Below, piece after piece: positions 31,719 to 35,827 of a stretch of DNA of 38,932 bases. Position 1 is the first letter of the stretch. Every line of letters begins with the position of its first letter. The stretch comes from SAR116 cluster bacterium MED-G04 (GTDB lineage: Bacteria; Pseudomonadota; Alphaproteobacteria; Puniceispirillales; UBA1172). The stretch spans positions 1-38,932 of the forward strand of contig NTKX01000009.1 in the NCBI GenBank assembly GCA_002457135.1. The letters are read 5' to 3'. The position numbers and the translations under genes are program-made. The notes under the pieces were generated by a model. That model did not search any database. It worked only from the letters and a program-made list of their open reading frames with translations, and was not told the origin of the DNA.

Positions 31719-32093
31719 CTAGGCCGGGTTGTCCATCAATGCCTGGAGATAATCCTGATGACTGTCGGGCAGGCTGTTCAGCGTCTGCATCAGGCATTCT
31801 TTCGGGAAACAGGTAATCACCGTGCGCATGCCGGCATACGCCGTGAAGGGCCAGTTGCCGCCGGCAAGAACCTCGGCAAGGCCAAAGATATCACCCTCGG
31901 TATAGGCCTTCAAAATCGTCTTGTTCGGAACATCGACAATCAGCACCGTTCCGCTGTCAATCAGGTAGAAATGGCTGGCCGGGCTGCCGGGCTGGAAAAT
32001 CACCTCATTGGCAAACAGGCTGATCCTCTGCCGTTGCCCCGCCGGGTCTGGGCTGGCCCCGTGCTTAACCGCTGTTATCTGTCTCGCCGTCAT
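31719..32093 (-). CDS. Stand-alone cyclic-nucleotide-binding-fold protein (second copy)
   Basis: A 124-residue protein consisting of little more than one CNB beta-barrel: NEVIFQPGSPASHFYLIDSGTVLIV, then KAYTEGDIFGLAEVLAGGNWPF. No helix-turn-helix, kinase or channel domain is attached. At the phosphate-binding cassette the usual FGEL...R-S/T-A pattern reads FGLAEVL...NWPFTAYA, so the canonical Arg is missing. It may bind another ligand, or act as a protein-protein module. The start overlaps the upstream CNB gene by 4 nt (ATGA). It is the last gene of a four-gene operon and convergent with the ABC ATPase gene. Confidence 0.8.
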   Translation of the reverse strand: MTARQITAVKHGASPDPAGQRQRISLFANEVIFQPGSPASHFYLIDSGTVLIVDVPNKTILKAYTEGDIFGLAEVLAGGNWPFTAYAGMRTVITCFPKECLMQTLNSLPDSHQDYLQALMDNPA

Positions 32094-32443
32094 GACGCAA
32101 TCACGGCGGTTGCCGCGCTGGCGAGGCAGACCGACAGCGGCCAGGTCATCCTGTTTTCACGATCACTGGCCATCCGGAACAGCGACCGCTGGATCAGCAC
32201 CGTGGTGGTGTCTGCCACGGCCTCAATATCATGAATGTATTCTTCGAGCGCCAGAAAGCCTGTCAGGCTGACCACCTCACCGGCCTTCCAGACCTGCCTG
32301 GTGCTGACATTGATCAGGCTGCCTTTCGATACCAGATAGGCGCGGTCGGTGGGCTGGCCGCACAGGATCACCCTGTCGCCTGCCTGAAAGGACTGGCGGG
32401 GGGCATCGCGGAGAATTTCTGTTGTCAGAAAGGGCGCACGCAT
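32090..32443 (-). CDS. Stand-alone cyclic-nucleotide-binding-fold protein (first copy)
   Basis: A 117-residue protein with a single CNB-like barrel: QSFQAGDRVILCGQPTDRAYLVSKGSLINVSTRQ, then WKAGEVVSLTGFLALEEYIHDIEAVADTTTVLI. The cassette again lacks the canonical Glu/Arg pair of cAMP-binding sites. The C terminus ends in a hydrophobic helix (LSVCLASAATAVIA) in place of a DNA-binding domain. The open frame extends upstream into the previous gene. ATG 32443, 4 nt after that gene's stop, is chosen. It is paralogous in fold to, but diverged from, the CNB gene that follows with a 4-nt overlap; a heterodimer is a reasonable guess. Confidence 0.78.
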   Translation of the reverse strand: MRAPFLTTEILRDAPRQSFQAGDRVILCGQPTDRAYLVSKGSLINVSTRQVWKAGEVVSLTGFLALEEYIHDIEAVADTTTVLIQRSLFRMASDRENRMTWPLSVCLASAATAVIAS

Positions 32444-32447
32444 CAGT

Positions 32448-32750
32448 CTATTTTCCCTGAATATCTTCAGCGATTTCAGCGGTTTCGATGCAGCGCGAGA
32501 TAAAAGCCATTGTCCTGGCCCTGCCCTGGAGCTGATAAAGCCGCATGGAGCCATAACGGCTGGCCGCCAGGGCAACCGTTTCAGGGTCGCGGTGAACGGC
32601 CGAAATCATGTCCATGATCTCTTCGATATGGTCACGGATGATGACGCATTTTTCAACGTCCCTGTCAGGCTCAGGGCCGCTCACCTCAATGGCGGGGGCT
32701 TGCCCTCCCTGTTCAGGGGAAAAATTGTTCAGGTAGATCACGTCACCCAT
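32448..32750 (-). CDS. Small helical protein of unknown function
   Basis: A 100-residue protein I do not recognise. The first 30 residues are Pro/Gly-rich and probably unstructured. The rest (EKCVIIRDHIEEIMDMISAVHRDPETVALAASRYGSMRLYQ..RTMAFISRCIETAEIAEDI) is predicted almost wholly helical. No catalytic motif or signal peptide is seen. ATG 32750 overlaps the lipoprotein stop by 8 nt, and the first CNB gene follows after 4 nt. This tight packing indicates a single operon and a shared function with the CNB proteins. Confidence 0.65.
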   Translation of the reverse strand: MGDVIYLNNFSPEQGGQAPAIEVSGPEPDRDVEKCVIIRDHIEEIMDMISAVHRDPETVALAASRYGSMRLYQLQGRARTMAFISRCIETAEIAEDIQGK

Positions 32751-33719: not shown

Positions 33720-35261
33720 CTAGCTGGAAAGGGCGAGTTTGCCGCGACGCCTGCGTTCGCTTGACGAAGGGATACGCAGGATTTCACGATATTTCGCCAC
33801 GGTACGGCGCGCCAGCCTGATGCCTTTTTTGCTGATCAGCCTGGCAATCAGCTCATCGCTCATCGGCCGACCCGGGTCTTCCTTTGAAATGATTTCCTTG
33901 ACCATCCCGCGAACCGCGGCGGCGGCCTTGGCCTCACCATCATCGGTGGCGGCAATGGAAACGCTGAAGAAGGATTTCATCGGCAGCGTTCCCTTGGGGG
34001 TAGCAATCAGCAACCCGCTCGTCACCCGGCTGATGGTGCTTTCATGCATCCCGATCGCCTCGGCCACATCACGCAGTGCCATCGGCTGCAACCCTTCAAG
34101 ACCGTTCCTGAAAAACGACTGCTGACGACGCACCAGTTCAGCCGCGATCTTGAGCGTAGTTGTGTTGCGCTGCTCCAGCGTTCGTTTCAGCCATTTGGCG
34201 GAACCCATGGACTGCTGAACGTATTCCTTGGTGGTGTCTTTCTGGCTGCCCCTGGCCCTGTCACCGACAGATTTTGCAAAATCTTCCTTGATTTCGAGGG
34301 TAGGCAGGGTGGAACGGTTGAGGTCTATTGACCAGCCCGAAGCTGTCTTGCGCAGGATCACATCAGGCGAATGATTACCGACCATGGTGTGACTGAAACC
34401 CTCGGCAGGTTTCGGGTTGAACGACCGGATTCGGTGCAGGCAGGCAATGATATCATCTTCATCGGCCTTGGCCTTGCGCGCCAGTGCCTTGATCTCGCCA
34501 GCCGCCAGTTGATCGATATTATCCAGCACGGTCTGCATCACATTATCGAGGCAATCGGCCTCATGGGCCTGGAGGGAGAGGCATTCCGCCAGCGAGCGGG
34601 CAAAAATACCGGTGGGTTCGAATTTCTGCATGCGCTTGAGCACGCTTTCCACCTGTTCGGTGGTGCATTGGCAGCTCTCGGCGATGCTGTCGATTGAGGC
34701 ATCGAGCCAGCCTGAAGGGGCCAGCCCGTCCAGCAGCGCAACCGCGATAAACCGGTCCCTGCTTTCGGTGATGGCGAAATCGATCTGCCCCATGACGTGA
34801 CGGTTCAGGCTGTCCTCACGGTTCGGGATGATGGTTGCGATCATATCCCAGTCGGTGGCAGCACCGCCTGCGGAGGCCGGGCCGCCAAGTTGCAATTCAT
34901 CGGAAGAAAACCGGTTTTCAAAATCATTGTGCTGGGTCGGGTCATCGGACAGCGCCTGACTGGCGTTCATGCCATCAAGGGCGGCCGGAGTATCTTGCAG
35001 GGTATCTTGCGGGGTATCTTGGGGGGTGTCTGATGATGCGGCAGGGGAGGCATCACCGGGCTGGGCATTATCACTGGTCGATGGAGCGGCACTATCGGCT
35101 CCGGCACTGACGTCAATAAAGGGATTTTCCAGTGCCTGTTCCTCAAGGTAATCCTTGAGTTCGATATTGGTCATCTGCAACAGCCTGATCGCCTGTTGCA
35201 ACTGCGGTGTCATGACCAGCGACTGTTTCTGTTTTAACCGGACGGACGGTGATAACTGCAT
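33720..35261 (-). CDS. rpoN: RNA polymerase sigma-54 factor
   Basis: Alternative sigma factor recognising -24/-12 promoters and needing AAA+ activators. The 513-residue protein has Region I at about 1-48 (QLSPSVRLKQKQSLVMTPQLQQAI..LENPF), an acidic, repeat-containing Region II (about 50-130), the core-binding domain, a helix-turn-helix near AEAIGMHESTISRVTSG, and the RpoN box ARRTVAKYRE at 484-493, which contacts the -24 element. The open frame starts at 35279, but ATG 35261 has GGGAGAA upstream and matches the family N terminus. The usual neighbours lptB, hpf/raiA and ptsN are absent. Here rpoN sits beside two probable sigma-54 targets. Confidence 0.96.
   Translation of the reverse strand: MQLSPSVRLKQKQSLVMTPQLQQAIRLLQMTNIELKDYLEEQALENPFIDVSAGADSAAPSTSDNAQPGDASPAASSDTPQDTPQDTLQDTPAALDGMNASQALSDDPTQHNDFENRFSSDELQLGGPASAGGAATDWDMIATIIPNREDSLNRHVMGQIDFAITESRDRFIAVALLDGLAPSGWLDASIDSIAESCQCTTEQVESVLKRMQKFEPTGIFARSLAECLSLQAHEADCLDNVMQTVLDNIDQLAAGEIKALARKAKADEDDIIACLHRIRSFNPKPAEGFSHTMVGNHSPDVILRKTASGWSIDLNRSTLPTLEIKEDFAKSVGDRARGSQKDTTKEYVQQSMGSAKWLKRTLEQRNTTTLKIAAELVRRQQSFFRNGLEGLQPMALRDVAEAIGMHESTISRVTSGLLIATPKGTLPMKSFFSVSIAATDDGEAKAAAAVRGMVKEIISKEDPGRPMSDELIARLISKKGIRLARRTVAKYREILRIPSSSERRRRGKLALSS
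34991..35026. repeat. 12-bp tandem repeat in rpoN Region II
   Basis: Three 12-bp units (TATCTTGCAGGG, TATCTTGCGGGG, TATCTTGGGGGG) encode a repeated Asp-Thr-Pro/Leu-Gln tract (DTPQDTPQDTLQDTP) in the acidic linker of sigma-54, a region that tolerates length change. Confidence 0.88.
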
Positions 35262-35349
35262 ATCAATTTCTCCCTGCATCTAGAAAATTCAGTGATCAAC
35301 TTGTCTTCTGACCAGCTCATGCAGGAAATCATGGGGATCATCCTAAATA

Positions 35350-35364
35350 TTAACAAATTCTTAA
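35350..35364. promoter_or_regulatory. CtrA-like box, left arm
   Basis: TTAA-CAAATTC-TTAA matches the full CtrA consensus TTAA-N7-TTAA. It lies 86 bp upstream of the rpoN start. CtrA is the cell-cycle/motility regulator of alphaproteobacteria, but no ctrA gene is in this window. Confidence 0.55.
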
Positions 35365-35478
35365 TTTGACGTGCGTCTTTGTCGATTTCTTGACAAAAAA
35401 ACGATTAAAATTGAGGGGGTAGGGCAGCGCGTGATGAAACGCGACTTGGCCCTGTCAAAGTTCAGACAGGCATGATAA

Positions 35479-35493
35479 TTTAGAATTTGTTAA
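35479..35493. promoter_or_regulatory. CtrA-like box, right arm
   Basis: TTTA-GAATTTG-TTAA is the inverted copy with one mismatch to TTAA-N7-TTAA. It lies 62 bp before the small membrane-protein gene at 35555. Confidence 0.45.
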
Positions 35494-35554
35494 TATTTGA
35501 ACCACCCGGAATACAGGCACACTGCTCGATCAAGGGGAAAAAGCGAGACCGTTC

Positions 35555-35827
35555 ATGATCACTCTTTTCCGAAAAAGACCGGCACGCGGCGGCGAATGCA
35601 CGCAATGCCGCATCATCCGGTCTTTCATGGCGGCGGCGTTCATGCTGGTCGTCCTGGCCCTGGTGGCCGCCGACCGGATGCATTACATCAAGGGGATCAC
35701 CACCGATCATATCGCGGCGGCGATGATGGCCGGGGGCGTGTTGCTTTTCATCGTCAAATTCGTGCTATGGCAGCGCGAAAAAAAATCCCGGCGTTCCGCA
35801 GATGAGCAATTTTCATCCGATGAATAG
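35555..35827 (+). CDS. Small membrane protein of unknown function
   Basis: A 90-residue protein with a Cys-x2-Cys motif near the start (GGECTQCRIIR, about 13-23), then two predicted transmembrane helices (about 24-40 and 51-69), a short loop, and a basic tail (WQREKKSRRS). I do not recognise the family. The ATG at 35555 has only a weak ribosome-binding site (AGCGAGA). It is divergent from rpoN and convergent with the DUF1566-like gene, 36 bp away. Codon use and the hydrophobic pattern support coding, but a random frame cannot be excluded. Confidence 0.55.
   Translation: MITLFRKRPARGGECTQCRIIRSFMAAAFMLVVLALVAADRMHYIKGITTDHIAAAMMAGGVLLFIVKFVLWQREKKSRRSADEQFSSDE

Follow-up and report, generated by a model that had tools for sequence, protein, structure and literature searches.

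Between the sigma-54 gene rpoN and a divergent gene for a small membrane protein, two TGTC-N8-GACA palindromes and an rpoN-specific promoter box form a core that is conserved in relatives. We consider this core, with a probability of roughly 0.6, to be a divergent control region in which the palindrome pair would be under one dimeric flagellar regulator. The inverted repeat around this core is real and lineage-specific, and is of little importance on its own. The conserved part, inside the repeat, is probably regulatory and ordinary in kind. The window, that is, the whole stretch of 38,932 nucleotides analyzed, belongs to a MAG of 1.56 Mb with an estimated completeness of 77%. The features under study, in positions of the window, are the following.

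33720-35261, minus strand: rpoN (sigma-54), starting at M7 of the long ORF
35345-35366, minus strand: left arm of the inverted repeat, TTAACAAATTCTTAA, overlying part of the rpoN promoter box and a TTAA-N7-TTAA (35350-35364)
35354-35370, minus strand: rpoN promoter box, GTCAAATTAAGAATTTG (consensus in the order GTCAAATnnnnnTTTTG), rpoN-specific
35357-35385, minus strand: putative rpoN promoter of the sigma-70 type, TCGACA-N17-AAGAAT, at the position of the relatives' conserved TTGACA-N17 arrangement
35380-35395, no strand assigned: proximal operator-like palindrome TGTC-N8-GACA, perfect
35452-35479, plus strand: putative sigma-70 type promoter of the divergent gene, CTGTCA-N16-GATAAT, a weak match to the consensus
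35453-35468, no strand assigned: distal operator-like palindrome TGTC-N8-GACA, perfect, starting 73 bp from the proximal one
35468-35483, plus strand: AGGCATGATAATTTAG, a degenerate remnant of a sigma-54 -24/-12 site or a false match; many relatives have such a site before the divergent gene
35477-35498, plus strand: right arm of the inverted repeat, TTAACAAATTCTAAA, in the place taken in relatives by the sigma-54 promoter region of the divergent gene
35555-35827, plus strand: divergent gene for a 90-aa membrane protein with a CxxCR motif, adjoining rpoN in many relatives

Conservation of the palindrome pair and the rpoN box

Using an alignment as the query against the contig collection, we obtained SAR116, HIMB59 and other alphaproteobacterial rpoN loci; a single protein of the window gave none. 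The rpoN upstream regions of 28 relatives were read, one of them shortened by a contig end and only one coming from family f4. Here f1 is the window's own family, and f2, f3 and f4 are families of the same order (SAR116/Puniceispirillales-like). Comparison with relatives places the rpoN start at base 35261 and not at 35279.

The window contains only the two TGTC-N8-GACA sites listed. The spacing of 73 bp between them is 73–75 bp in relatives. In the f1/f3 upstreams, the proximal palindrome lies 25 bp before the rpoN box, frequently imperfect by one or more mismatches (above all in the f1 genus g3), and the distal one lies 98–100 bp before it. As a module of two palindromes and the rpoN box, the window shows 1 mismatch, and the best of 2,000 shuffles of its own sequence shows 9. 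The same module was found with 0–5 mismatches in 23 f1/f3 relatives, which, like all relatives counted here, are not independent samples. The spacer length turned out to be specific: TGTC-Nk-GACA occurs at k = 8 in 17 of 27 rpoN upstreams and is nearly absent at the other k from 2 to 15. The form TGAC-N10-GTCA occurs in 24 of the 27. In f2 and f4, the distal palindrome was missing from its position, and the left half of the proximal one is eroded in g3 and G001. Thus, the palindrome pair is a feature of f1 and f3. The rpoN box is essentially specific to rpoN and is kept in f1, f3, f2 and f4. Several SAR116 and HIMB59 records show it before rpoN; among the remaining alphaproteobacterial rpoN upstreams that we fetched, it was not observed.

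The same palindrome at flhA

A perfect TGTC-N8-GACA is located at most 120 bp from the flhA start in 13 of 30 loci, belonging to f1, f2, f3 and f4. No TGTC-Nk-GACA with k = 3–7 or 9–14 was found in these 30 flhA upstreams, and the remainder of these loci, 130 kb of flanking DNA, contains no TGTC-N8-GACA. Since the palindrome occurs at flhA only with k = 8 and is missing from the flanks, it probably serves as operator for a flagellar regulator, which, judging from the consensus, would be CRP/CooA-like or NifA-like. The stricter form TGTCNNAANTCNGACA, searched in 61 genomes, is found mostly in the rpoN region, and also at flhA in three genomes and at a few scattered sites. In f3 and f4, the flhA palindrome is 29 bp from the start codon or overlaps it, which fits a repressor better than an activator. 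In f4 (among L190-L219), it overlaps an ATG (TGTCATGAATTTGACA). We did not find flhA in this incomplete MAG, and the link to flhA therefore rests on relatives.

Promoters and the proposed control region

The first hexamer of the putative rpoN promoter overlaps the proximal palindrome, and its second hexamer is within the left arm. Besides the likely -10, the left arm overlies the rpoN box in its 3' half. Transcription would be expected to start near 35350 (minus strand) for rpoN and near 35486 (plus strand) for the divergent gene. On the other side, the divergent gene for the small CxxCR membrane protein is called in 15 of the 28 relatives' rpoN upstreams, and its 90-aa product in the window matched no Pfam or NCBIfam family. 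In several f1/f3 genomes, the sigma-54 promoter of this gene scores 9.4–9.6 of 10; the window reaches at most 7.6. The preliminary description had spoken of two apparent sigma-54 targets beside rpoN. We found no TGGCAC-N5-TTGC, with up to 1 mismatch, before the neighboring genes, and this remark is not supported.

From the conservation, spacing and uniqueness of the palindromes, and from the same palindrome at flhA, we infer that a single protein binds both sites. The region would then serve as a divergent control region of rpoN and the small membrane-protein gene, with one dimeric flagellar regulator occupying both candidate operators. The operator starts are 73 bp apart, which corresponds to about seven helical turns and thus places them on the same face of the DNA. 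Cooperation or looping between them may perhaps occur. The rpoN-specific box would act as a promoter element just downstream of the proximal candidate operator. Since this operator overlaps the likely rpoN -35, a bound protein would either repress rpoN or position RNA polymerase. A flagellar regulator thus probably controls the sigma-54 gene. Sigma-54 autoregulation at the rpoN box was rejected, as the spacing of GTCAAATnnnnnTTTTGC is wrong for a -24/-12 site. Some f3 genera have a sigma-54-like site that overlaps the rpoN box on the opposite strand, and this is not general. In genus g9 (L022-L026), a sigma-54-like site (e.g., CGGCACGCAATTTGCA), again oriented opposite to rpoN, is found immediately downstream of the box and overlaps with it, which suggests that sigma-54 may occupy its own promoter there.

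The inverted repeat is rare and lineage-specific

The inverted repeat had been described as having 22-bp arms with one mismatch, an interior of 110 bp, and a location between rpoN and the divergent 90-aa ORF. All of this proved exact: the arms at 35345-35366 and 35477-35498 are 22 nt each, lie 110 nt apart and match at 21 of 22 positions (95% complementary). The inverted repeat scores 18; dinucleotide-preserving shuffling of the 293-bp intergenic region, run 300 and 1,500 times, never gave a score above 12. Such a match is better than shuffled sequence would give by chance, and so a function of the arms is possible. With N runs set aside, only 3 other spaced inverted repeats scoring at least 17 were found in 1.03 Mb of fetched loci. 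Comparable repeats thus occur at roughly 4 per Mb; they are rare, yet one genome may hold a few of them.

The repeat was present in none of the 28 relatives' rpoN upstreams. Aligning these upstreams, the check named in the preliminary description, went against the arms: they are not kept in relatives, and the conserved part is mainly the interior. In the proposed control region, the arms would overlie the -10/start regions of both divergent promoters. The repeat would be a lineage-specific inverted duplication, or a convergence, on top of the operator core. The region folds well (z -3.7) owing to the arms. An RNA element was rejected: there was no Rfam match, 84 and 57 nt separate the arms from the two start codons, and the repeat lacks conservation.

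Possible origins or roles of the arms

The arms may be a functionless product of mutation, and we give this not quite an even chance. The AT-rich start region of the rpoN promoter would have been pasted in inverted orientation by template switching, replacing the divergent sigma-54 promoter. Among the box variants, GTCAAATTAAGA-TTTTG of f2, f4 and g16 resembles the left arm, which is therefore the native copy. The right arm stands where relatives keep TGGYAY-N5-TTG, which the window is without, and the repeat occurs in no other genome examined. However, the most similar RpoN shares only about 55% identity, which hides the order of events within the genus, and the right-arm region is AT-rich in relatives as well. 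This origin is compatible with the palindrome pair and the rpoN box being the functional core, a reading that leaves the origin of the arms open.

Less probably, the left arm is a binding site of CtrA, with weaker binding at the right arm. An ancestral box between the operators would have been lost, and a new site over the -10/start would repress rpoN. CtrA-like boxes had been noted before, a perfect TTAA-N7-TTAA in the left arm and a version with one mismatch in the right arm, and both are there. The TTAA-N7-TTAA at 35350-35364 is the only one in the window, and only 0.7% of the intergenic shuffles contain one. A box of the same spacing is found in 14 of 23 f1/f3 rpoN upstreams (shuffle mean 0.9; other spacings 0–5), 12 of them with the longer TTAAC form. 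Its distance from the rpoN box, on the upstream side, is 78 bp, or 53 bp in g10. In L010-L016 and others, a conserved TTAA-N7-TTAAC is located between the operators, and in f1 it lies inside a TTGACA-N17-TAACYA-like distal promoter. The window has no TTAA-N7-TTAA either 78 or 53 bp upstream of its rpoN box. In this order, rpoN likely does have a CtrA-type box nearby; the window has lost it or never had it there.

Most members of the window's family have a CtrA ortholog, 48–52% identical to that of Caulobacter. In this MAG, ctrA was not found; dksA and recA, its neighbors in family members, are also absent. Apparently, the MAG is gapped there. With recA missing too, the absence of ctrA was dropped as an argument against CtrA. 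In Caulobacter, CtrA is already known to control rpoN, by activation, and CtrA repressor sites overlap the -10 (PMC6180460).

Against binding at the arms, the first TTAA of the left arm recurs in f2, f4 and g16 as part of their rpoN box (GTCAAATTAAGATTTTG and variants). In f2 and f4, no protein near Caulobacter CtrA was found, the best matches being at the level of other OmpR-type regulators. The left arm is therefore weak evidence for CtrA. Moreover, TTAA-N7-TTAA is not enriched in the genome (19 versus 20 in the control; 4 versus 5–6 with a final C), and no flagellar or cell-cycle gene stands behind the 15 genomic sites inspected. In relatives, the pattern is lost at the arm positions while the rpoN promoter is intact, an outcome that the preliminary description itself had named as refuting. 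Its proposal thus survives in part. Control by CtrA through the arms is unlikely, since the arms are not kept and the TTAA belongs to an older box; a link between CtrA and rpoN in the order is supported, by boxes that lie elsewhere. Our literature search yielded nothing on CtrA in SAR116-type bacteria.

A reading of the arms as IHF-type bending sites on either side of the operators is quite improbable. By inspection, the left arm sequence TAACAAATTCTTA matches 12 of 13 positions of WATCAANNNNTTR, which we take to be the IHF consensus. At the corresponding place of their rpoN boxes, L009 and L031 match it perfectly (AATCAAAACCTTA, AATCAAAGTCTTA). However, the right arm matches worse, with two mismatches, the motif is not kept in most relatives (box variants GTTTA, AGATG and GAATA), and the consensus is weak and AT-rich.

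A MITE-like mobile element with 22-bp ends, the alternative offered earlier on the strength of inverted terminal arms around a 110-bp interior, can be set aside: the 154-bp unit is single copy in the 77% of the genome searched, the arms do not recur in the MAG with up to 3 mismatches allowed, and the conserved interior, an ancestral promoter module, is not of foreign origin. The earlier preference for regulation over a mobile element was thus borne out.

Candidate regulators and comparison with known systems

A phased TGTC-N8-GACA pair at rpoN and a single site at flhA may point to an undescribed flagellar master regulator in marine bacteria of the Puniceispirillales type, acting above or beside CtrA and also in lineages without CtrA; we hold this tentatively, at somewhat below even odds. 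We know of no account of flagellar switching in the abundant, mostly uncultured SAR116-type bacteria. The palindrome pair at rpoN together with the same site at flhA is a concrete handle for finding their flagellar regulator. Downstream of rpoN (31719-32575, minus strand), two adjacent ORFs match the cyclic-nucleotide-binding domain, the second weakly. No HTH domain was found in these ORFs as called (124 and 161 aa).

CooA is a member of the CRP/FNR family. The CooA consensus is TGTC-N8-GACA (PMC7306483), and the palindrome that a CooA-like operator calls for is present in the window. The consensus is identical and the length of 16 bp is the same. Unlike CooA operators, the sites described here have rpoN and flhA as targets, and not CO oxidation genes.

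The consensus of NifA-type upstream activators is TGT-N10-ACA (PMC4999443), and TGTC-N8-GACA is a subset of it. In many relatives, the sigma-54 -24/-12 site of the divergent gene is about 18–37 bp from the distal palindrome. This site downstream of the palindrome is strong in many relatives; the window has only AGGCATGATAATTTAG. In contrast to NifA-type sites, the palindrome also occurs at the rpoN -35 and at flhA starts, with no sigma-54 promoter shown there.

The class II flagellar promoters controlled by CtrA in Caulobacter (rpoN, flbD; PMC6180460) are similar in that rpoN is a regulated alphaproteobacterial flagellar gene, and the TTAA-N7-TTAA boxes of the f1/f3 relatives resemble them. 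Unlike the Caulobacter promoters, the window has its only full box on the rpoN -10/start and not at the relatives' position. The deeper conserved signal here is the palindrome, which at flhA extends to families that yielded no CtrA.
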